From Pseudomonadota bacterium (lineage in GTDB: Bacteria; Pseudomonadota; Alphaproteobacteria; Acetobacterales; Acetobacteraceae), in NCBI GenBank assembly GCA_021809435.1, contig JAKBAD010000009.1, positions 1 to 64,000 on the forward strand: a stretch of 64,000 nt of DNA. The letters run 5' to 3'. The translations under genes and the position numbers were made by a program. The notes under the pieces were generated by a model. It did not search any database and had not been told where the DNA came from. It worked only from the letters and a program-made list of their open reading frames with translations. Positions 2 to 46,108 of the stretch are shown here, piece by piece. The stretch's first letter is position 1, and every line of letters begins with the position of its first letter.

Positions 2-3000
2 ACCACCCAGCTGGCTTCGGATGGCAATGGCCAGGTGCAGACGCAGGGCGATTTTGCCAGCGGCATCGCGGCGCAATCGATCGCGGGCGATGGCGGCAAT
101 GGCGGCTTCTCGGTCGGCGCCTCGGCGACGGCGGGTACGGTTGAGGCGACCGTTGGCGGTGGCGCGGGTGGCGCGGGCGGCGCGGCTGGTGGTGTGACCG
201 TGCAGAATGCTGATGTGGTTGTGACCCGCGGTGCGTCGGCCAACGCCATTCTGGCGCAATCGATCGGTGGTTCGGGCGGTGCCGGCGGGTTCGCGGTTGG
301 GGCGGGGCTTACCATGTCCGGCTTGTCGGGTAAGGCGGTTATTGCGAATGCCATCGGTGGTCCGGGTGGCGCCGGCGGAACGGGGGGCGCCGTGAAGGTG
401 ACCACCGACTCCCTGGGGCTTTCGACCTCTGGTGCCAACGCCTCCGACATCGTCGCGCAATCGATCGGCGGTTCGGGTGGCGCGGGCGGTTTTGCGGTCG
501 GTGGCGCGCTGGGAGGTGTTCTCAATTCCACCTTCGCGTCGCTCTCCAACACGCTTGGCGGTGATGCCGGTGTCGCGGCGGGAGCAGGCGGCGCGGGCGC
601 CAATGGCGGCGCTGTCGCGGTGACCATCAGCCCGGCGGCGGGTGGCGGCGTGATTGTCGCCAAGGGTGATTTCTCCTCCGCGGTGATCGCGCAATCCATC
701 GGCGGTGGCGGTGGTGAGGGTGGCTTTGCCGTGGGCGGCGGCGCCAATGTGACGACCGGCGTGACCGGCGGCGTGGGCGGCGGCGGCGGCAATGGCGGAC
801 AGGTGACGGTGAGCAACGCCGATACCCTCTCGACCCTGGGTACGGGCACTTATGGCGTCCTCGCGCAATCCATTGGCGGCGGCGGCGGCAATGGCGGGTT
901 CGCGTTCGATGGCGGGCTTTCGGCGATCGGGGCTTCGGTGACCTCGGGCGTTGGCGGTGATGGCGGCAATGGCGGCAATGCCAACAGCGTGAATGTCGCC
1001 AATGCGGGTGAGATCGTCATGCAGGGCGACAACGCCGCGGGTGTGCTCGCGCAATCCATTGGCGGTGGCGGCGGTAATGGCGGCTTCGCCATTGGCGCCG
1101 GGGCCTCAACGACGGAAGCGGTTACCACCACCATTGGCGGCACGGGCGGCGGCGGCGGTGCCGGTCTGGATGTAACTGTGCTCAACAGCGCCACCGGGAT
1201 CATTTCGACCCAGGGCACCATGGCCTATGGCGTTGAGGCGCAGTCCATCGGTGGTGGCGGCGGCAATGGCGGTTTCGCGGTGGATGGCGCGCTGGCCGCG
1301 CTCGGCGGTGCCAGTGCTACCATTGGCGGCGGTGCTGGCGGTGCTGGCGGTGCGTCCGGCCTTGTTTCGGTCACGAATAATGGACAGGTGATAACCACGG
1401 GCGCATCGTCCATCGCGGTTCTGGCGCAGTCGGTCGGCGGTGGCGGCGGTGCTGGCGGTTTTGCCGGCGCGCTCAGCGTGGGCGCTGGTGGCGCGGCGCT
1501 GGAGACCATTGGCGGCTCGGCCCTGGGCGCCAGCAATGGCGGTGCGGTATCGGTGACCAATGGCGGCCTGATCGAGACCGCGGGCGCGGACTCGACCGGT
1601 ATCCAGGCGCAGTCTATTGGCGGCGGCGGCGGTAATGGCGGGTTTGTGTTCACCGGCTCGGGCTCGGTGGGCAGCGGTGCCGGTCTCGCCATCGGCGGGG
1701 CGGGTGGTGCTGGCGGGGCGGGTGGCATTGTCACTGTGGCCAACACCAACACCATCGTCACCAAGGGCGTGCAGTCTTACGGCGTCATCGCGCAATCCAT
1801 CGGCGGTGGTGGCGGCAATGGTGGTATCGCGGCCTCGGGCACCATCACCGCGGGCGCGGGCGGGCTTAGCACCGCGCTGGGCGGCACGGGCGGCAAGGGT
1901 GGCGCGGGCGGCAATGTCACGGTCACCAATTCCGGCACCATTCAGGTGCAGGGGGTGGGGTCGGTGGGTGTCATCGCGCAATCCATCGGCGGTGGCGGCG
2001 GCACGGGCGGATTTGCCGGGGCGGTTGACTTCATCGCCGGTGGCACGCTCAACAACGCGGTGGGTGGCACGGGTGGCAATGGCGGCTCGGGCGGTACTGT
2101 CACGGTGACCAGCACCGGCACCATCCAAACTCTGGCCGATGATTCGGTCGCCGTGCTGGCGCAGTCCATCGCGGGTGGCGGCGGCGCCTCGGCCATTGGC
2201 ATCTCGGCGCAAACCGGCACGCTCGATGCCGCGGGTGTCACGGTGGGTGGCGCCTCGGCGGGCGCTAACGGCTCCACGGGCACGGTCACTGTCAATATCA
2301 GCGGCGGCACGCTCTCGACGCTGGGCGCCATGTCTTATGGCTTGCTGGCGCAAAATATCGGCGGCGGCGGTGGTATGGCCTTCCTTAGCGTGCCCGATCC
2401 GCTGACCACCGCGGGGGGGGGCGTCACCGTCTCGGTGGGCGGCAGCAATGGCGCGGTGGATAACGGCGCCGCGCTCGCCACCACCAACGGCAACCAGGTG
2501 CTGACCAGCGGCCTGGGCGCCGCGGGCCTCATCGCGCAGTCGATTGGCGGCGGCGGCGGCACCGATGGTTTCACCGGCGACATGACGGTTGGCAATAATG
2601 TCGGTGTGCTCACCGCGCGGGCGGGCGGCAGCGGCACGGGCGGTGGCACGGCGGGCGCGGTCTCGTTTGGCAACACCGCCTATGTGCAGACCACGGGGGC
2701 CAACGCCTCGGGCATCATTGCGCAGGCGATTGGCGGCGGCGGCGGCATGGCCACCCTGGCGGCCGGCGTGGTCACCGGCACGCCGCTCGGCGTGGTGCTC
2801 GAGAATGGCGGCTCGGCCGGCACCGTGAGCGATGGCGCGGCGCTGACCTTCCCCCTCTTCACCGGCGCGGTGCTGACCACGGGCGATCTCTCGCAAGGCA
2901 TCGTCGCCCAGTCGATTGGCGGCGGCGGCGGCATGACCACCGTTTCGGCCACCAGCGGGTTCACGGTCGGCACCAACGGCATCAGCTTCGCGGTTGGCGG

Positions 3001-5701
3001 CACGGGGGCTGGCGGCGCGGGCAAGGATATCACCTTGACCACCCCCAGCACGGTCACCACCCAGGGCAATGGCGCGGCCGCTCTGGTGCTGCAATCCATT
3101 GGCGGCGGCGGCGGATTTGCCAGCCTCGCCAGTGCTGGTGGTCAAAATCCGGCGGTGTCGTCGTCCACGGTTGGCGGCACGGGCCCCACGGCGGGCAATG
3201 GCGGCACCATCACCTACACCAGCCAGGCCCAGATCAGCACAAGCGGTATCGGCTCGGCGGGCGTCATCGCGCAGTCGATCGGCGGCGGCGGTGGCGTGGC
3301 GTCGGCGGTGGGTGTCGGTTCGGCGGGCGCGGTCACGCTGGGTGGCAGCAACGGCGCGTCGGGCAATGGCGGCGCTGTCACGGTGACGCTGGGCGCGCTG
3401 GTCAACACCACGGGCGCTGGTTCGGCGGGTGTCGTCGCGCAATCCATTGGCGGCGGCGGTGGCGCGGCGTCGTTCTTCTCCTCCACCGGCACGGCCGAAA
3501 CCGGCCCCGTCACCCTGGCTTCGGGCGGCAGCGGCAATGGCGGCGCGGTGGCGGTTACTGTCAACGCGGCGGTCACCACCTCGGGCGCCGGGGCGGATGG
3601 CGTCGTGGCCCAGTCGGTTGGCGGCGGCGGCGGCATCGCGGGGTCGGGCACGCTGGGCGCCGATCCGGCATCGGGCCTGTTCATCGGCTCGGCTGGCGGC
3701 AGCGGCACGGGCGGCGCGGTGAATCTGGCGGTGAACGCCACGATCGACACCACGGGCGCGGGCTCCACTGCCCTGCTCGCCGACAGTTCGGGCGGGTCTG
3801 GCAACGGCGTCATTTCCGTCGCCATCGGCAATGTCTCTGTCACCGGCGGTCCGGGCGGCGGCCATGCGCTCAGCCTGATTGGCGGGAGCAACAATGTCGT
3901 CACCAATAATGGCGTGCTGTCCACGGCCGATGGGCTGACCGGCACGGTCATTTACGGCGCGGGCGGCAACAGCGCCATCACCAACAATAACCTCGTGGTC
4001 GGCAGCATCGATCTGGGCTCGGGCGTCAACAGCTTCACCAACGCCCAGGGTGCCACCTTCATCGCCGGGCCGGTGGTGAATGTCGGCCAGAACGGGCTTT
4101 ATACATCGGCCGGCTTCAGCTCCCCCGCCAATTGGAACACGGTGGGCACCGTCAACGTCACCGGCAACCTCGCCTTGACCTCGACGTCGATCTATGGCGC
4201 CGATCTCAACTTCACGGGCGCCACCTCGGCCGACAGTTATAATGTCAGCAACACGGCAAGCGTGAACGGCGCGGTCGAGCTCAATGTGCTCAATCCGGGC
4301 CTCGCGCAAACCGGCACGCACCAGCAGGTGCTGGTTGGCACCGTCAATGGCATCACCAATAACGGTCTGACCCTGGTGGCCGATCCGAGCGCGGTATCGA
4401 CCAACAGCCTGGTGTTCACGGGCACGGATGCGCTGTTGCGGGAGGTGGTCAATTACGCCCCCGCGGGGCTGACCGCCAACGAGGCGGCGGTGGGCAACGC
4501 GATCAACGCGATCCAGACCACCCGCGCCTCGGCCGGCTTCGTGCCGGTCGCCGCCGACCTCTATTACGTGCCCACCGTGGCGGAGCTGGGCCAGATTTAC
4601 GACTCGCTCGGCAATCCCGGCGCCACCGCGACCGTGCAAACCGCCTTCGCGGCCACCGACTCCTTCATCACCACCGTCAATTCCCGCATTGGCGACTGGC
4701 TCGATGCCAATGCCTGCGGGGCCGCCTGTGGCGGGGCCGGTCCGGTTGCGGCCGCCCGCGCCGCGCTCGGCGGCGGCGATAACCCGGCCCCGCATGACGG
4801 GCGCGACTGGAGCAGCTGGGTGACCGCCACCGGCGAGCGCTTCCATGTCAATAATGACAGCCGCACCAGCGCGCCGGGCATGACCTCGACCGGCGTCACG
4901 GTCGCGGGCGGTGTCGAATATCGCGGTCTGCCCGGCTATGTGGCGGGCGTGGCGGCGGGGGCCGGACAAATGAGCTTCGCCGATAATGACCACGCCACCT
5001 CGGGCGATGTGAATTTCGGCCATGTGGCGCTCTATGGCGGCTTTGAGCGCGGCAACACCTATCTCAGCGCCATCTCCTCGCTCGATGGGTTCTGGAACAC
5101 CGAGAACCGCTCCGTCTTCGTGCCCGGCGCCACGCCGAGCGCGCTGGTGGGCGGGGTGCAGCCGGCAGCGCTGCCGGGTCTCTCGGGCCGCCTCCACGGC
5201 GCCTTCTTCAGTGGTTCCTGGACCGGACGGGTCGAGCTTGGTCAGCGTTATGAGTTCAATTTCGGCACGCTCCAGCCCTTCGCCTCGTTCCAGATCAGCC
5301 TGCTCAACACCAACGCCTTCACCGAAACCGGCGGTGGCGCGCTGGGTGCGGTGGCGCTGAGCTATCATCCGGTCACCAACAAGAGCATGCCCATCGATCT
5401 GGGCCTGCGCTATGGCGATGCGGTGATGCTGGGCGACAAGGGCGCGCTCGCCTTCAGCGCCCGCCTGGCCTGGCAGCACGAGCTCTCGAGCGACCGTAAC
5501 CTCGTCGCCTCGTTCGGCTCGGCCAACAACTTCGCCTTCACGCTGCTGGGCGCCCGCCCGCCGCGTGACTCGGCGCTGGTGCAGGCCCAGGCATGCTGGA
5601 TCTTCGACAAAAATTACGAGCTTTACGGTGCCATGAATGGCGATTTCGCCAGCGGCGGCACGGTTTATTCGGCCTCGGGCGGCATGCGCGTTGTCTGGTA
5701 A
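2..5701 (+). CDS. Large autotransporter (outer-membrane beta-barrel domain), Gly-rich repetitive passenger; 5' truncated by window edge
   Basis: Frame is open to the window start (TTQLASDGNGQ precedes the listed start). Repeated AQSIGGGGGNGGFA motifs; C-terminal barrel-like region ends in GGMRVVW with a terminal aromatic residue. Confidence 0.85.
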   Translation, partial: TTQLASDGNGQVQTQGDFASGIAAQSIAGDGGNGGFSVGASATAGTVEATVGGGAGGAGGAAGGVTVQNADVVVTRGASANAILAQSIGGSGGAGGFAVGAGLTMSGLSGKAVIANAIGGPGGAGGTGGAVKVTTDSLGLSTSGANASDIVAQSIGGSGGAGGFAVGGALGGVLNSTFASLSNTLGGDAGVAAGAGGAGANGGAVAVTISPAAGGGVIVAKGDFSSAVIAQSIGGGGGEGGFAVGGGANVTTGVTGGVGGGGGNGGQVTVSNADTLSTLGTGTYGVLAQSIGGGGGNGGFAFDGGLSAIGASVTSGVGGDGGNGGNANSVNVANAGEIVMQGDNAAGVLAQSIGGGGGNGGFAIGAGASTTEAVTTTIGGTGGGGGAGLDVTVLNSATGIISTQGTMAYGVEAQSIGGGGGNGGFAVDGALAALGGASATIGGGAGGAGGASGLVSVTNNGQVITTGASSIAVLAQSVGGGGGAGGFAGALSVGAGGAALETIGGSALGASNGGAVSVTNGGLIETAGADSTGIQAQSIGGGGGNGGFVFTGSGSVGSGAGLAIGGAGGAGGAGGIVTVANTNTIVTKGVQSYGVIAQSIGGGGGNGGIAASGTITAGAGGLSTALGGTGGKGGAGGNVTVTNSGTIQVQGVGSVGVIAQSIGGGGGTGGFAGAVDFIAGGTLNNAVGGTGGNGGSGGTVTVTSTGTIQTLADDSVAVLAQSIAGGGGASAIGISAQTGTLDAAGVTVGGASAGANGSTGTVTVNISGGTLSTLGAMSYGLLAQNIGGGGGMAFLSVPDPLTTAGGGVTVSVGGSNGAVDNGAALATTNGNQVLTSGLGAAGLIAQSIGGGGGTDGFTGDMTVGNNVGVLTARAGGSGTGGGTAGAVSFGNTAYVQTTGANASGIIAQAIGGGGGMATLAAGVVTGTPLGVVLENGGSAGTVSDGAALTFPLFTGAVLTTGDLSQGIVAQSIGGGGGMTTVSATSGFTVGTNGISFAVGGTGAGGAGKDITLTTPSTVTTQGNGAAALVLQSIGGGGGFASLASAGGQNPAVSSSTVGGTGPTAGNGGTITYTSQAQISTSGIGSAGVIAQSIGGGGGVASAVGVGSAGAVTLGGSNGASGNGGAVTVTLGALVNTTGAGSAGVVAQSIGGGGGAASFFSSTGTAETGPVTLASGGSGNGGAVAVTVNAAVTTSGAGADGVVAQSVGGGGGIAGSGTLGADPASGLFIGSAGGSGTGGAVNLAVNATIDTTGAGSTALLADSSGGSGNGVISVAIGNVSVTGGPGGGHALSLIGGSNNVVTNNGVLSTADGLTGTVIYGAGGNSAITNNNLVVGSIDLGSGVNSFTNAQGATFIAGPVVNVGQNGLYTSAGFSSPANWNTVGTVNVTGNLALTSTSIYGADLNFTGATSADSYNVSNTASVNGAVELNVLNPGLAQTGTHQQVLVGTVNGITNNGLTLVADPSAVSTNSLVFTGTDALLREVVNYAPAGLTANEAAVGNAINAIQTTRASAGFVPVAADLYYVPTVAELGQIYDSLGNPGATATVQTAFAATDSFITTVNSRIGDWLDANACGAACGGAGPVAAARAALGGGDNPAPHDGRDWSSWVTATGERFHVNNDSRTSAPGMTSTGVTVAGGVEYRGLPGYVAGVAAGAGQMSFADNDHATSGDVNFGHVALYGGFERGNTYLSAISSLDGFWNTENRSVFVPGATPSALVGGVQPAALPGLSGRLHGAFFSGSWTGRVELGQRYEFNFGTLQPFASFQISLLNTNAFTETGGGALGAVALSYHPVTNKSMPIDLGLRYGDAVMLGDKGALAFSARLAWQHELSSDRNLVASFGSANNFAFTLLGARPPRDSALVQAQACWIFDKNYELYGAMNGDFASGGTVYSASGGMRVVW
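240..3660 (+). repeat. Degenerate intragenic repeats encoding [VI]xAQSIGGGGGxGGFA-type units
   Basis: Recurrent gcgcaatccattggcggcggcggc-like DNA and the AQSIGGGGG peptide throughout the passenger. Confidence 0.85.
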
Positions 5702-5747
5702 CGCGTATGCCGGCCAGATTTTTACCATCAACCAGGGTGCGTCACAC

Positions 5748-8700
5748 ATGAAACAGAAATCCTCCCGCCGGCGTTCAGAGTTGCTTTCGAGCGTTGCGAT
5801 CTGTGTGCTCGCTCTGGGCATGGTGCCGGCCGCGCCGGCGTTGGCGCAGGCCATAAGCTATGGCGGCGCGGGCGGCGCCTCGGGGCTGGGTGTCAATAAC
5901 GGCCCTGGAGGCGCGGCCTCGGCCATGTTCAATGGCGGCTCGGGTGGCACGGGCGGCGGTGGCGGCGCGGGCGTTATCGGCGGCAATGGCGGCAGCAGCG
6001 GCGCGGCCAACTCCCCGGCTCTGGGCCTGGGCGGCGGCGTTTCGGTCAATAATCTCGGCCAGTCGGGCGGCAATGGCGGCGGCACCACCTCGCCCACCAT
6101 CGGCTCGGGCACCGGCGGTGGCGGCGGCTCCAACGGCTATGTCGGCACGGGCCTGCCCACCTCGGTGGCGGTCGGCGGCACGGGCGGCAATGGCGGGGCC
6201 GGCAATGGCACCGCCGATTATGGCGGCGGTGGCGGCGGCGGCGGCTATGGCGCGGTGTTGGAGAGCACGGGCAATCTCGGCACGCTCAACACCAACGCCA
6301 CGGGCGGCATTGGCGGCAATGGCGGCGGCAGCCTCAATCTGGTCGCGGGCAATGGTGGCCAGGGCGGCGTCGGCCTGTTCGACAACCCCTCTGAATCCGC
6401 CACCCCTGGCACCCTCACCATTGGCACGGGCTTTTCGGTCTCGGGCGGCAATGGCGGCACGGCTGGCCTGCCCACGGGCACCGGCGCCACGGCGGGCGTG
6501 GCGGGGGCGGGCGGTGTCGGCCTGGTGGCCGATAACCTCACCCTGGTCAATAATGGCGTGATCAGCGGCGGCTTGGGCGGCAATGGCGCCACCCGCGCCG
6601 ACGCGCTCGATTTCATCGGCGGCGCGAATGAGCTGACCATGGGCACGGGCGCCCGGCTCACCGGCAATGTCATGATCGAATCCGGCACGCTGGCGCTGAA
6701 CCAGGCCGGCAACCCGGCCTGGACCTACGCCGACAGCTTCAGTGGCGCCGGCGCGCTCGATGTATCGGGCGGCACGGTCACGCTCTCGGTGGCCAACACC
6801 CAAACCGGCGGCACGTCGATCACCGGCGGCACGCTGGTGGTTGGCGCGGCCGGCGCCGTTGGCGCCGAGACCGGCGCCACCGACATCACGGCCGGCGCGC
6901 TCAATTTGAGCGGCACCCAGCTCATCCAGAGCGGGCTCAGCATTTCGGGCGGTGAGCTGGCCAACGGCACCATCACCCTGCTCGGCGGGGCCAACACCGC
7001 CATCCAGGCCAGCGGCGGCACGCTCAATAACATCGTCGGCGCCCCCGATCTGGTGACCAATGGCGGCACCACCACCCTGGCCGGCACCAACCTGCTGGGC
7101 AATGTCACCAACAACGCCACGCTCATCAACACCGGCACCACCACCGATGCCCTGACCAACACCGGCGTGGTCGAGAATTCAGGCACCTATATCGCCGATA
7201 TCGCCTCGAACACCGGCACCATCACCAACGACAGCGGCGCCCTGTGGCAAGGCACCATCGGCGTGGGCGCCAACGGCACCGGCACCATCGTCAATAATGG
7301 CGGCTGGGTCGGCAACGCCGTCAATTCCGGCGGCGTGATCGACAATAACGGCACCTGGACCGGCACGATGGCCAACACCCAGGGCTCCTTCGCCAATACC
7401 GGCACGCTCACCGGCCTGTTCACCAACAGCGCCAATGCCAGCAATGCGCCCACGGGTGTCATCGAGGGTGGGGTCTCCAACACCGGCTTGTTCACCACCA
7501 CCGGCACCATCGGTGGCGGCCTGACCAATACCGGGCTGGTCAACGCGGCGGGCGTCATCAATGGCGGCGTCGATAACCAAAATGGCGGCACGTTCAATGT
7601 CACCGGCAACCTGACCAGCGACACCGCCTTCACCAACCAGGGCGGCGCCACGCTCACCGTGCAGGCGGGCGTGTATAATGTCACCGGCAGCATCTCCAAC
7701 GCGGCCGCGGGCATTGTCACCATCGAGAGTGGGGCGACCCTGGCCTCGACCCTCGGGCTCGATAATTCCGGTACCATCACAAATAACGGCGCGGTCACGG
7801 GTGGCCTGAGCAATTCCGCTGGCACCTTCACCAATAATGTGGGCGCCACGCTCGACACCGCCAGCCTCACCGGCGGCACGATCATCAATTATGGTAACGT
7901 TACCGGCACGGTTGACCAAACTGGCGGTACGTTCACCAACCAGGTTAGCGGCAGCACCGGGGCATTCACCGAAAATGGCGGCGTGGCCAGCAATGCAGGC
8001 TTTGTCGTCTCGCTCGACAACCAGTCCGGCAGCTTTACCAATACCGGCTTGATGGGCAACGTGACGCAGGAAGGCGGCTCGGTCACCAATAGCGGCGTGG
8101 TGTCAGGCACGGTTGGCCAAACTGGCGGTACGTTCACCAACCAAAACGGCGGCATCACCAGGGCATTCACCGAAAATGGCGGCGTGGCCAGCAATGCGGG
8201 CGCAGTCGCCTCGCTCGATAACCAGTCCGGATCCTTCACCAACACTGGTGTCATCACGGGCAACGTGACGCAGGAAGGCGGCTCGGTCACCAATAGCGGC
8301 GTGGTGTTTGGCACGGTCGGCCAGACCGGCGGCACGTTTACCAATCAGGCCGGCGGCATCACCGGGGCGTTCACCGAAAATGGCGGCGTGGCCAGCAATG
8401 CGGGCGCAGTCGCCTCGCTCGATAACCAGTCCGGATCCTTCACCAACACTGGTGCCATCACGGGCAACGTGACGCAGGAAGGCGGCTCGGTCACCAGCAG
8501 CGGCGTGGTGTCAGGCACGGTCGGCCAGACCGGCGGCACGTTTACCAACCAAGCCGGCGGCAGCACCGGGGCGTTCACCGAAAATGGCGGCACGGGCAGC
8601 AATGCGGGCAAGGTCGCCTCGCTCGACAACCAGTCGGGCTCCTTCACCAACACCGGCACCATCTCGGGTAACGTGACGCAGGAAGGCGGCTCGGTCACCA

Positions 8701-25739: not shown

Positions 25740-26939
25740 ATGACACGTGATGAGCTATATCAACTGGTATGGTCAAAGCCGGTTACACACGTCGCGAAAG
25801 ATTATGGCGTTTCGGACGTTGCAATTCGCAAGGTCTGCAAAAAGTACGGCATTCCGCTTCCCCCGTTAGGTTACTGGGCCAAATTGCAGCATGGGAAGAA
25901 AGTCCGGGAAACACCATTACCGCCACCACAGCCGGGTCAATCGGGTGAAATAAATTTAAAGGTCCATAATAGGCCAGAACTCGCGGATGACGTGATTGAA
26001 GCCGAGGAAGTCGCCCGGGGAGATGAAGCTAAACCAGAGCGGCGTATTACAGTTCCGACTACCCGCCCGGATAGGCTTCACCCTATCGCAGCGGCCACCG
26101 AAAAAGCCTTGCGGAAGGCAAAACCAGATCATGAAGGATTTGTAGCGAGCGGTGCTGAAGATAAAATCGGCGTCGTTGTCGGACAAAGCTCAATTGACCG
26201 GGCCATTCTTCTTATAAATACGTTTTTAGAGGCCGTTATTGAACGGGGGCACCAACTGACAACCACCCCAACATTCAACGTGATGGTTGATAACCAGCCC
26301 CTAAAACTGAGCGTTCATGAAACAAAGGTAAAGATACAGCATGTTCCTACGACAGCTGAGCTAAAGGAACAGGCCAAACACGACCAGTACGTTGCCCAGT
26401 ATCCGACGTTCTACAGCCAAAATCGCAAAGTTTACCGGACCTGGGATTATATTCCGTCTGGGCGGCTTGTCGTTGAAATTTGTGATCCGCTGCAAGCTGC
26501 TTGGCGCTCGGCCCCGGTCTTTGGGCGCTGGTATGACCGAAAAACATCAGGGGTTGAAACCTACATAAACGAGATGATGGTAACCCTTGTGACCGGGGCC
26601 GCCATTGCGAAAAATCAGCGGGCCAAAGAGGCTGAGCAAGCCCGATTAGCAAAGGAGGCCGAAGAACGAAGGCAAGAAAATGAGCGGCAGGCGCGCCTTC
26701 TTGCAAGGGCCACAGAATTTCTAACCGAGAAGGCTAAAAAGCACGAATTGTTAGAAAGGATTGTGCGATTGGGACGGTTTTTGGACTTGGACACCGATGC
26801 TACAGACGCAGGTCAGTTTTCTGAATTAAGGTCCACGTTCGATTTCGTTGTGGCCCATTTGCGCCAGCAGATTTCAGCAAATAATCTGAACCAAGAGGTT
26901 ATTAATACTCGGCTCCTCGACAGGAAGCGGTGGTATTAG
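25740..26939 (+). CDS. Hypothetical protein with N-terminal HTH-like segment, element cargo
   Basis: MTRDELYQLVWSKPVTHVAKDYGVSDVAIRKVCKKYGIPLPPLGYWAKLQHGK. Confidence 0.7.
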   Translation: MTRDELYQLVWSKPVTHVAKDYGVSDVAIRKVCKKYGIPLPPLGYWAKLQHGKKVRETPLPPPQPGQSGEINLKVHNRPELADDVIEAEEVARGDEAKPERRITVPTTRPDRLHPIAAATEKALRKAKPDHEGFVASGAEDKIGVVVGQSSIDRAILLINTFLEAVIERGHQLTTTPTFNVMVDNQPLKLSVHETKVKIQHVPTTAELKEQAKHDQYVAQYPTFYSQNRKVYRTWDYIPSGRLVVEICDPLQAAWRSAPVFGRWYDRKTSGVETYINEMMVTLVTGAAIAKNQRAKEAEQARLAKEAEERRQENERQARLLARATEFLTEKAKKHELLERIVRLGRFLDLDTDATDAGQFSELRSTFDFVVAHLRQQISANNLNQEVINTRLLDRKRWY

Positions 26940-42142: not shown

Positions 42143-42787
42143 ATGCGGCATGAGGACATCTGGCGCGCGATAGACACGTTGGCCGCCGAGCACGGGCTGT
42201 CCGTCTCGGCGCTGGCGCGCAAGGCGGGGCTCGATCCCACCAGCTTCAACCTCTCCAAGCGCCGCGGCGCGGATGGTAAATTGCGCTGGCCCTCGACCGA
42301 GAGCATCGCCAAGATCCTCGCCGCCACCGCCACCCGCATGGAGGATTTCTCGGCCCTCATCACCGGCGCCCGCGTCATCGCCGACACGCGCCCCCGCGCG
42401 CGCACGCGCATTCCCCTCATCGGCCTCGCCCAGGCCGGCGCCGAGGGGTTTTTCGACGATGGCGGCTACCCCGCCGGCGCCGGCTGGGACGAGGTCGAGC
42501 TTCCCGCCACCATGGATGCCAACGCCTACGCGCTCAGCATCTCGGGCTCATCCATGGAGCCACTCTACCGCGAGGGCGACATCATCGTCGTCTCCCCCGC
42601 CGCGCCCGTGCGGGTGGGCGACCGGGTGGTGGCCCGCACGGCTAATGGCGCGGTCATGGCCAAGCAGCTCGTCCGCCGCACCGCCTCGCGCATCGAGCTG
42701 CTCAGCCTCAACCCGGCCTTCCCCGAATTGCGCTTCTCCACCGCCGAACTGCTCTGGATGCACCGCATCATCTGGGCCAGCCAATAG
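42143..42787 (+). CDS. HTH and S24/LexA-like peptidase-domain regulator
   Basis: N-terminal HTH LSVSALARKAGLDPTSFNLSKR; SGSSMEPLYREGDIIVV and GDRVVARTANGAVMAKQL. Confidence 0.88.
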   Translation: MRHEDIWRAIDTLAAEHGLSVSALARKAGLDPTSFNLSKRRGADGKLRWPSTESIAKILAATATRMEDFSALITGARVIADTRPRARTRIPLIGLAQAGAEGFFDDGGYPAGAGWDEVELPATMDANAYALSISGSSMEPLYREGDIIVVSPAAPVRVGDRVVARTANGAVMAKQLVRRTASRIELLSLNPAFPELRFSTAELLWMHRIIWASQ

Positions 42788-42884: not shown

Positions 42885-44015
42885 GTGAAACACGAGGAAG
42901 AGTTCAAAACAGCGCTGCACGCGCTGGTCGAGGATAATCGCCAGATTCTGGCCGTGGCGCTGCTGGACGCCGATGGCGCGTGCCTGGCCGACCTCGGCAC
43001 GCCGAACATGGACCGCGCTGAAATCGCCGGCTACCTTGCCGCCCTGCTACAGCCGGGGCCGGGCGCGCTGTCGCAGCTGCGCATCAACCGTCAGGGCTTC
43101 ATGCTCTCCAACCTGCCGGGCGGTCATGTTCTGGTGCGCCAGGTGGAGCAAATGGCGGTGCTGTGCATTCTCAGCCGCGCCGGCGGCAAATTGCCTCTGC
43201 CCTTGCCCGACACCACCGCCCTCGCCGCCTGGCTCGAGCAACGCCAATCCCCCCCCGCCGCGCCGGCCCCGCCAGCAGCCCCAGCGCCAGAGGCCGCGCC
43301 GGCCCCAGTGTCCGCGCCGCCATCCACGCCCCTCATCCTGCCCGATTTCGCATCTCGCCCGCCCATCGCGGCGCCCGCGCTCGCCTCTGCCCCCGTGCTC
43401 CCCGAGGCGCCGCCCCAGCCCCCCCTTGTTCCAGCACCCGATGCCTCCGCCCTCTGGCCGCCCCCCGTGCCAGAGTTGCCCGCCTCCGAGGCCGAAAATC
43501 CCGCGCCCGCAACCTCCCCCGCCGATTCTGCGCCCATGGCCGATGACCCGCCGCCCCCCGGCCCCGTCTTCCCCCCCGAGGACACCGCCCGCATCCGCGC
43601 CCTCGCGCCGCGCATCGCCGCTCATCTGCCGGCCATCACCACGCGCTTCTACGCCGTCATCAAGGCCCAGCCGCAAATGGCCCGCTTCATCGGCGATGCT
43701 GAAATGCGCCTGCACCAGACCCACAAGGTCTGGGTCGAGAGTCTGTTCACCGGCGATTACGGCCCCGCCTTCTGTGCCCGCCAGCGTGCCATCGGCCTCG
43801 CCCACGACCATGCCGGCGTGCCCCCCTTGCTGGCCGCCGCCAGCATGGTGTTCCTGAGCAAATCCTTCGCCAATACCATCCGCGACTGTACAGATGACGC
43901 GCCCGAAGCCGCCGCCGCCCTGGCCGCGCTCAACCGCCTGCTGCTTTTCTGCCAATCCCTGATGGATGACCGCTACACCCACCTGATCGCCCGCCTCGAA
44001 GGGGCCGCCGAGTAG
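42885..44015 (+). CDS. Roadblock/LC7 - Pro-rich linker - protoglobin-like fusion protein (GTG start)
   Basis: N-terminal Roadblock-like ALVEDNRQILAVALLDADGACLADLG; C-terminal globin-sensor-like RIRALAPRIAAHLPAITTRFYAVIKAQPQMARF ... LFTGDYGPAFCARQRAIGLAHDHAGV. Confidence 0.78.
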   Translation: MKHEEEFKTALHALVEDNRQILAVALLDADGACLADLGTPNMDRAEIAGYLAALLQPGPGALSQLRINRQGFMLSNLPGGHVLVRQVEQMAVLCILSRAGGKLPLPLPDTTALAAWLEQRQSPPAAPAPPAAPAPEAAPAPVSAPPSTPLILPDFASRPPIAAPALASAPVLPEAPPQPPLVPAPDASALWPPPVPELPASEAENPAPATSPADSAPMADDPPPPGPVFPPEDTARIRALAPRIAAHLPAITTRFYAVIKAQPQMARFIGDAEMRLHQTHKVWVESLFTGDYGPAFCARQRAIGLAHDHAGVPPLLAAASMVFLSKSFANTIRDCTDDAPEAAAALAALNRLLLFCQSLMDDRYTHLIARLEGAAE

Positions 44016-44175
44016 CGCCCAAACGCCAAAAGCCCGCGCTTTGGGGGGCTTTGCCTAATTAAGCGCCAAGCGCCGAGCAAGCTCGCGCCATGTTGGGCTG
44101 GAAGGCCAAAAAAACCATTAACTTACTGTAAAGCGCGCCTTCCCACCATGCCGGAATCGGCGAATAACTACGCTC

Positions 44176-45111
44176 ATGTCAGGGTTTCACAATAAATCGG
44201 GCGCCACCGCCAAAATCATCGCGGCATTGCAGAATTTGGTGGCCGAGGCCCGCGTCATCGAGGCAGCCGCCCTGGTCGGCCGCGATGGCCAGATCATCGC
44301 CCATGTCACGCGCGCCGCCGCCGGTCCCGAGGCACTGTTCGCCGCCGTCGATGAGCTGCTCGCCCCCGAGTCGGCGCATCTGCGCCATCTTGGCCAGGGC
44401 ACTCTGGGCCAGGTGGTCGAAAGCGCCGCCTCCCGGCGTGTGATGATCCGCCAGGCCGGCGCGGCCGCGCTGGTCTGCACGGTCAGCGGCGGTTATGGCC
44501 GTGGTGGGTCGCAATTGCCCTCCATCGCGGGTGCCGCCACGCGCCTGGCCGAGCTGAGCCAGCAACTGCCCCCCGTTTTGCCCAAGCCCCCCGCACAAAC
44601 CGCCCCGTCCAGCATCGCGTCTCCCGATCCATTCCCCGGTCTGCGCGTCCCCGATGTTCCAGCCTGCCCGCTCACCGCCGAGGATTGCGCCCGCATCGGG
44701 GCGCTGCGCCCCTTCGTCATGGGTGTATTGCCGGGTGTGACGCGCAAAATTTACGACGCCATGGAAGCCGAGCCGCAAATGGCCCGCCATATGCCCAACG
44801 GCACCGCGCGCCTGCGCGACATGCACATGGCCTGGCTGGAAACCCTGTTCACCGGCGATTACGGCCCCGACTTCACGCGCCGGCAGCTTCAAATCGGTCA
44901 GGCCCACCAGCTCGCCGGCATCCCTCCGGTGCTGCTGGCGGCCAACATGGCCTATCTGCGCGCCATTTTGCCGCCCGCCCTGCGCGGCGCGCTGGGGGAG
45001 GGCGTGCTGTCCGAAATCGCCATCGGCACGGTCATGCGTCTGGTCGATTACGCCTTCACCCTCATGGACACCACCTCCAGCGGTTTAATCAACCGGATCG
45101 GCGGGGCGTAA
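44176..45111 (+). CDS. Second Roadblock/LC7 - protoglobin-like fusion protein
   Basis: N-terminal LQNLVAEARVIEAAALVGRDGQIIAHV; C-terminal RIGALRPFVMGVLPGVTRKIYDAMEAEPQMARH ... LFTGDYGPDFTRRQLQIGQAHQLAGI. Confidence 0.78.
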   Translation: MSGFHNKSGATAKIIAALQNLVAEARVIEAAALVGRDGQIIAHVTRAAAGPEALFAAVDELLAPESAHLRHLGQGTLGQVVESAASRRVMIRQAGAAALVCTVSGGYGRGGSQLPSIAGAATRLAELSQQLPPVLPKPPAQTAPSSIASPDPFPGLRVPDVPACPLTAEDCARIGALRPFVMGVLPGVTRKIYDAMEAEPQMARHMPNGTARLRDMHMAWLETLFTGDYGPDFTRRQLQIGQAHQLAGIPPVLLAANMAYLRAILPPALRGALGEGVLSEIAIGTVMRLVDYAFTLMDTTSSGLINRIGGA

Positions 45112-45222
45112 CCGTCCCGAGGGGATGTTGTTTAGTTATAACAATTCCGCTCCCCGAGGGCTCTTGCCAGAGTTGTGAAATCGGTTACGTTCAGCACACG
45201 CCAGATCGCGGGAGGAGCCAAG

Positions 45223-45588
45223 ATGCGTGAAGCTCAAATCCAGGCCATTTTGCAAAACCTCACAGCGAGTTCAGGCGAGATCGAGGCCTCGGCCCTGGTC
45301 TCGAAAGACGGTCTGATCATCGCCTCCGCCTTGGCGCCGGGCATGGATGAAGCCCGCGTCGCCGCCATCGTTGCCGCCATGCTCTCGCTGGGCGACCGCA
45401 TCGCCGGCGAGCTCTCGCGCGGCACGCTCGAGCAAATCCTGGTCTCGGCCAGCGGCGGCCATGTGCTCATCCAGCATGTGGGGCAGTCGGCGGTGTTGTG
45501 CACCATCACCAGCAAATCCATCACGCTGGGGTTGATGTTCATGAACGCCAATCATTACGCCAAGGCCATGGCCACGCTGCTGGCCTGA
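45223..45588 (+). CDS. Stand-alone Roadblock/LC7-domain protein
   Basis: LQNLTASSGEIEASALVSKDGLIIASALAPGMDEARVAAIVAAMLSLGDRIAGELSRGTLEQILVSASGGHVLIQHVG. Confidence 0.87.
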   Translation: MREAQIQAILQNLTASSGEIEASALVSKDGLIIASALAPGMDEARVAAIVAAMLSLGDRIAGELSRGTLEQILVSASGGHVLIQHVGQSAVLCTITSKSITLGLMFMNANHYAKAMATLLA

Positions 45589-45636: not shown

Positions 45637-46008
45637 TCAGGCCACGCCCGCGCGCGTCACCAGCGTATCGAGGTCCAGCAGCCTGTTCACCAGCAGGGTG
45701 GAGCGTTGCATCATCGCGGTTTCCAGCGCCACGGCCTTGGCCTGGTCGGTGGCCAGCGCCTCCACGGCAGCCATCGATTCGGCATGAAACGCCTCATGCT
45801 GGCGCCCAATCTCGCGCCACAGCGCGGTAATGTCATCGGTGGCCAGGCGGTTCACCATGCCGGTGCCGTCGCTGTCGTACCATGTGCCGAATTTGCAGCT
45901 ATGGTGGTCGCAACAGCGCGAATGCTCAACCCCATCGGCAATCGTTCGCCGCACCATGGCCAGATAATTCACATGCTGGGTAATCGCCTGCAGAATTTGA
46001 ATGGCCAT
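45637..46008 (-). CDS. Stand-alone CZB-like (chemoreceptor zinc-binding) domain protein
   Basis: ITQHVNYLAMVRRTI ... CCDHHSCKFGTWYDSDG ... IGRQHEAFHAESMAAVEAL: the His / CxFGxWY / HxxxH pattern of CZB domains. Confidence 0.8.
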   Translation of the reverse strand: MAIQILQAITQHVNYLAMVRRTIADGVEHSRCCDHHSCKFGTWYDSDGTGMVNRLATDDITALWREIGRQHEAFHAESMAAVEALATDQAKAVALETAMMQRSTLLVNRLLDLDTLVTRAGVA

Positions 46009-46108
46009 GCCTGCACCTTCTGTTTGTCCGACAGGCGCGATCATACCGGCGGTGGCTTTGGCTGTCCACCGCGTATCAATTCCACAAATGTTTGATTTAA
46101 AACGGATA

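Follow-up and report, generated by a model that had tools for sequence, protein, structure and literature searches.

Globin and Roadblock/LC7 domains have been described within one protein in Methylacidiphilum infernorum, whose globin-Roadblock protein HGbRL has had structures of its globin domain solved, was suggested to relay ligand binding to its Roadblock and was called unique to Methylacidiphilum in 2015 (PMC4476040). Protoglobin-type domains with a B10 Tyr and an F8 His are found in the globin-coupled sensors (GsGCS, HemAT, AfGcHK, DosC/BpeGReg), where the globin is N-terminal and the output is an MCP, a kinase or a GGDEF domain. The Roadblock fold is shared with MglB and CvnB, which are partners of MglA-family GTPases and carry no globin.

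The window analysed here, a stretch of 64,000 nucleotides from the genus Acidocella (acidophilic Acetobacteraceae), contains two tandem open reading frames, A and B, at the positions where Roadblock/LC7-globin proteins had been predicted. The features of the locus are as follows, with heme-site residues taken from alignment:

42143 to 42787, forward strand: HTH/S24 (LexA-like) gene, just upstream of the gene for protein A.
42885 to 44015, forward strand: protein A, 376 aa, GTG start (ORF list, Pfam, AlphaFold2, Foldseek); Roadblock/LC7 at about residues 1-119, Pro/Ala linker 120-226, protoglobin 227-376; heme-site residues Tyr256 (B10), His280 (E11) and His307 (F8).
43557 to 44012, forward strand: globin domain of protein A, which as a PDB query on its own has a Geobacter globin-coupled sensor as top match.
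44176 to 45111, forward strand: protein B, 311 aa (ORF list, Pfam, AlphaFold2, Foldseek); Roadblock/LC7 at about residues 8-128, linker 129-164, protoglobin 165-311; heme-site residues Tyr193 (B10), His217 (E11) and His244 (F8).
45223 to 45588, forward strand: standalone Roadblock/LC7 protein, 121 aa (Pfam 2.8e-13, 49.8 bits), absent from the original prediction.
45637 to 46044, reverse strand: CZB (chemoreceptor zinc-binding) domain as a protein by itself, 135 aa; its gene and that of the standalone Roadblock are convergent.

The linker, expected to be Pro/Ala-rich and very long in the first protein, indeed comprises 107 residues in A (37 Pro and 27 Ala), against about 36 in B. For the standalone Roadblock we place the start at the ATG at 45223, which has a GGAGG site and agrees with the starts of the orthologs; the listed reading frame opens at 45175. 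The 160 bp between the genes for A and B hold a hairpin-like sequence, so that the two are only possibly co-transcribed. Elsewhere in the window, between positions 26001 and 38000, the G+C content drops to 0.49-0.62 compared to about 0.66 in the surroundings, and this segment could be an acquired island.

In both proteins the chain begins with a Roadblock/LC7 domain, continues in a Pro/Ala-rich linker and ends in a protoglobin, which confirms the domain order originally proposed. For the globin, the Pfam Protoglobin scores of 78.8 bits for A (5.7e-22) and 60.9 bits for B (1.9e-16) lie far above the cut-off of 25 bits, phmmer matched the Geobacter globin-coupled sensor 2w31 with the globin domain of A (3.5e-7) and with protein B (0.0024), and the same sensor, GsGCS, is the top PDB match of Foldseek for both models, with TM-scores by target length of 0.84 (A) and 0.76 (B). 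The fused N-termini, at 15.4 (A) and 17.9 (B) bits, remain below the Pfam Robl_LC7 cut-off of 23 bits. Despite this shortfall, we regard their Roadblock identity as settled at the level of sequence and model, since a profile built from standalone Roadblocks only matched them in a whole-genome search at 5.9e-11 (A) and 9.1e-10 (B), and since AlphaFold2 predicts for both proteins the Roadblock topology of a helix, two strands, helices, three strands and a helix, followed by a helical globin at the C-terminus, just as the original prediction, which had named structure prediction as a check, would have it. The models were built from alignments of 13 sequences and have a mean pLDDT of 76 (B) and 65 (A), low mainly in the linker; the Foldseek PDB matches of their N-termini comprise Asgard Roadblocks, MglB and Ragulator subunits, with Roadblock3 among the hits.

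One could argue that such genes are spurious reading frames or that the resemblance arose by chance, given that the high G+C content creates many shadow ORFs in the window and that the fused Roadblocks score below the Pfam cut-off. This reading, to which we give practically no credence, is already refuted by the profile E-values, by dN/dS values of about 0.30 (A) and 0.13 (B) against the nearest relative, which denote purifying selection on both genes, by conservation across the genus and by the two structure predictions. The globin-Roadblock fusion is hence a real, conserved and selected architecture.

Its distribution was followed in 147 genomes, namely 38 members of the genus Acidocella and 109 others. 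A profile search found Roadblocks akin to those of the window in 18 of the 38 Acidocella genomes and in 0 of the 109 others. Seventeen of these 18 genomes also encode a Roadblock-linked globin, and the exceptional one is a 73% complete genome in which the Roadblock is a fragment; among the 20 Roadblock-negative Acidocella genomes, no globin of the Roadblock-linked type was detected (Fisher 6e-10 for co-occurrence across the 38 genomes, with relatedness ignored). All 20 distinct fusion sequences examined in the genus retain the Roadblock, and among cultured strains A. aromatica DSM 27026 and A. aquatica NBRC 112502 carry fusions. There are two main layouts. In one, found in the window genome, G020, G034 and G011, A and B stand in tandem next to the S24 gene; in the other, a standalone Roadblock lies beside a single fusion, in many cases accompanied by a protoglobin gene of its own (product about 185 aa). 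The flanks of the fusion loci are housekeeping genes that depend on the clade and mark several insertion sites, across which no dedicated partner gene besides Roadblock and globin is conserved in Acidocella. As a candidate for such a partner, the S24 repressor was rejected, as it is a core gene present in 36 of the 38 genus members, and the CZB gene is not conserved beside other Acidocella fusions. Outside Acidocella, no fusion was found among 387 genomes of the class or at 29 loci inspected from a 399-genome sample of the phylum, and a search for a plasmid origin gave no relevant match. A diverged Acidocella copy of the Roadblock (L116, 7510-7875) adjoins a 1741-aa CheB-CheR-PAS-kinase-receiver-LuxR protein (locus 2113-7875, reverse strand).

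The original prediction had further assumed that this combination was undescribed, which does not hold in view of HGbRL, a published protein with the reverse domain order and a globin of another family. Like A and B, HGbRL combines Roadblock/LC7 and heme globin within a single chain (about 270-400 residues), occurs in an acidophilic host and has a hexacoordinate heme with a ligand from helix E (predicted for A and B), and gas-to-Roadblock signalling has been proposed for it. However, its globin is N-terminal, of the flavohemoglobin/HGbI type and has a Lys(E10)-His pattern, whereas A and B place the Roadblock first, use a protoglobin with a His(E11)-His(F8) pattern and have counterparts split into neighbouring genes, and the two fusions probably originated independently. 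The difference to the globin-coupled sensors lies in the C-terminal position of the globin, in the Roadblock that takes the place of their outputs and in a phylogenetic position outside the MCP-type clade. What is new here is therefore the protoglobin-type, Roadblock-first fusion together with the split pairs, while the joining of globin and Roadblock as such is already known. In the open-access papers searched, protoglobin and Roadblock are nowhere mentioned together, and a survey of Ras-like GTPases in bacteria from 2014 (PMC4316618) makes no mention of globins.

A tree built from 84 globin domains, which was obtained by a quick search and has moderate supports and some long-branched rows, unites the Roadblock-associated globins, both fused and adjacent ones, in a single clade (SH-aLRT 94) that is distinct from the MCP-type sensors, of which Acidocella also encodes representatives. 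Within this clade, all 20 globins of the fusions cluster together (SH-aLRT 90). The fusion therefore probably arose once, from a standalone protoglobin that was already encoded beside a Roadblock; this inference draws on the globin tree, as the Roadblock tree, with 121 columns, is poorly resolved. Two globins of the Acidithiobacillus group nest among those of Acidocella, a placement that speaks for gene transfer from one acidophile to another, and the globin of family f195 lies just outside the Roadblock-associated group on a long branch.

Neighbouring but separate Roadblock and protoglobin genes occur in Acidocella, Acidithiobacillus and the families f187 and f195, at an expected chance of about 0.1-0.3% for a protoglobin to lie next to a given Roadblock (2-4 protoglobins per about 2700 genes). 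A Roadblock ortholog is present in almost all relatives of an Acidithiobacillus MAG, and most genomes of that group have an operon of GTPase, p212 (itself weakly matching Roadblock) and Roadblock ahead of genes read as glycyl-tRNA synthetase; in G475, G501 and G502 a standalone protoglobin directly follows the Roadblock. In f187, three genomes (G592, G633, G662) combine Roadblock, protoglobin and GTPase in one cluster, and in f195 (G827) the gene order is GTPase-Roadblock-protoglobin. One Acidithiobacillus-group locus (L129 of G501; 2368-5025 and 5025-5336, forward strand) carries a Roadblock, a protoglobin, a protoglobin-GGDEF-EAL-CZB protein, a P-II protein, a Roadblock and a protoglobin in a row, which suggests a link to c-di-GMP; the CZB-like domain at the C-terminus of its protoglobin-GGDEF-EAL protein can be compared with the CZB gene of the window. 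In another f187 genome (G757; L148 703-1473, forward strand), an ODP-family protein with a metallo-beta-lactamase fold of the diiron oxygen-binding type lies within the Roadblock-GTPase cluster. A conserved neighbour of window-type Roadblocks, next or close to them in different lineages, is a substrate-binding protein of the PhnD-like type (PF12974), which recurs at these loci:

L142, 701 to 1450, reverse strand: PhnD-like protein.
L144, 2418 to 3164, forward strand: PhnD-like protein.
L113, 8546 to 9400, forward strand: PhnD-like protein, in Acidocella, with an SCP2 protein between it and the Roadblock.
L114, 6696 to 7550, reverse strand: PhnD-like protein.

With respect to the heme site, the motifs noted originally are borne out by alignment: FY/IY contains the B10 Tyr, and IGLAH/IGQAH carries the likely proximal ligand, His307 of A and His244 of B, which aligns with His93 of 2w31, while His280 (A) and His217 (B) align with its His66. 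In the Geobacter sensor, His66(E11) is a heme ligand that makes the protein bis-His (PMC4476040), and A and B are accordingly predicted from their sequences to be bis-His hexacoordinate in the same pattern. In the alignment, 19 of 20 fusions and 16 of 18 Roadblock-adjacent globins but 0 of 46 other protoglobins have a His at E11, while the proximal His F8 occurs in 14 of 20, 18 of 18 and 46 of 46, respectively. The six fusions without it have Lys (one clade of four), Tyr (L048) or Phe (L054).

These exceptions bear on the question whether the globin still senses gas at all or has become a fold for protein contacts in which heme is dispensable, as in RsbR of Bacillus subtilis, a known heme-free globin sensor domain (PMC4476040). 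The likeness to RsbR is that of a globin sensor domain whose heme ligand can disappear, which has happened in 6 of the 20 fusions, although RsbR has a STAS/stressosome output and an N-terminal globin. The fusions have parted with the proximal His three separate times, and the sole such globin of G016 and of G035 is one without this residue, both of which fit with a heme-free function. Against it, A, B and all standalone partner globins retain both the F8 His and the B10 Tyr and nearly all of them the E11 His, and the altered fusions of the Lys clade are encoded next to a heme-competent standalone globin, so that we consider a heme-free role quite unlikely. It is also imaginable that the globin acts on the gas itself, by storage, NO detoxification or redox chemistry, and that the Roadblock only tethers or dimerises it. 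Protoglobins do bind O2, CO and NO in vitro, and the role of some is described as unknown (PMC3680402). However, no conserved reductase domain or partner lies nearby, the Roadblock is under selection and kept in all fusions, and related loci encode signalling proteins (GGDEF-EAL, ODP, GTPase), which leaves such a role very improbable from our point of view.

A and B are, judged by sequence and models, most likely heme gas sensors with a Roadblock output, and oxygen or a similar gas would probably control the Roadblock switch. Our reading of the whole, which we hold tentatively and at slightly below an even chance, is that of protoglobin-class heme gas sensors whose Roadblock targets a small GTPase similar to MglA; heme binding, the gas response, the pairing of the Roadblocks and the GTPase target are all inferred. 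MglB-type Roadblocks pair with each other, and the Roadblocks of A and B, which in this scheme serve as the output of sensors of the protoglobin/globin-coupled-sensor class, may likewise pair mutually and with the standalone Roadblock next door. Binding of O2 (or NO/CO) would displace the distal His E11 from the bis-His heme, the movement would pass via the flexible linker to the Roadblock dimer, and the dimer would change its grip on the small GTPase.

In the window genome, the sole candidate for this target would be an MglA-like GTPase encoded on contig C4 (506234-506806, at 506.2-506.8 kb; L136 8232-8807, reverse strand), away from the fusions, which already has two Roadblock-like neighbours, namely a Roadblock-sized protein without Pfam match and a long-linker protein with a C-terminal Roadblock (weak Pfam match, 0.0053). 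Its P-loop and LPGQERF are present. Its G4 motif (N/TKxD) is degenerate (AVAVSRLGE), and its guanine specificity is doubtful. No GTPase was found within the window or beside other Acidocella fusions, and an MglA-like GTPase occurs in only 3 of the 38 Acidocella genomes, including that of the window, with PF03029 as a second search singling out the same three. As the GTPase-family profile is sensitive enough to match MglA proteins of the PDB (Myxococcus xanthus, 5.9e-5; Thermus, 4.1e-4), its failure to match in the other 35 genomes is informative. Fusions are present in all three GTPase-bearing genomes, a number too small for an association.

Since, of the 18 Acidocella genomes with a Roadblock, 15 yielded no MglA-like GTPase (profile search; PF03029), Acidocella as a genus has not conserved a GTPase dedicated to this role. 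One could therefore imagine a heme-gas sensor that works without a GTPase, in which fusions and standalone Roadblock assemble into a hetero-oligomer and in this way sequester or scaffold another partner. Such a module would also fit with the missing dedicated partner at the insertion sites, the S24 neighbour being a core gene, and with the frequency of orphan MglB homologs (328 of 749), none of which had been characterised by 2014 (PMC4316618). We nevertheless regard it as rather unlikely, because the same Roadblock family, many members of which resemble MglB and CvnB in this respect, adjoins a GTPase in most lineages outside Acidocella and because a GTPase operon exists in the window genome too. 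For the sensor acting on a GTPase, the genomic case is, as far as gene neighbourhoods can tell, good outside Acidocella and weak inside; the neighbours in other lineages make an action of the Roadblock on a GTPase plausible, and the shared clusters in f187 and f195 support a link between gas sensor, Roadblock and GTPase. The GTPase control originally proposed gains support from this clustering in two lineages and is weakened by the lack of a conserved GTPase in Acidocella; for the motility or polarity control proposed with it, no support was found. It is possible, if less than probable, that the locus represents a heme-gated MglA/MglB branch in which O2 or NO, through protoglobins that lie beside Roadblocks in several proteobacterial lineages and were fused to them once in Acidocella, determines the state of a bacterial Ras-like GTPase, and that most Acidocella then lost the GTPase and rewired the complex of sensor and Roadblock.

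Overall, the inputs of bacterial Ras-like GTPases are poorly known, and a globin that is joined to or paired with a Roadblock would offer a concrete input that can be read spectroscopically. For orphan Roadblocks, of which no characterised example existed in 2014 (PMC4316618), A and B provide two-domain proteins to purify. Together with HGbRL, the Acidocella fusions suggest that globin and Roadblock have been united at least twice, in opposite orders and from different globin families.
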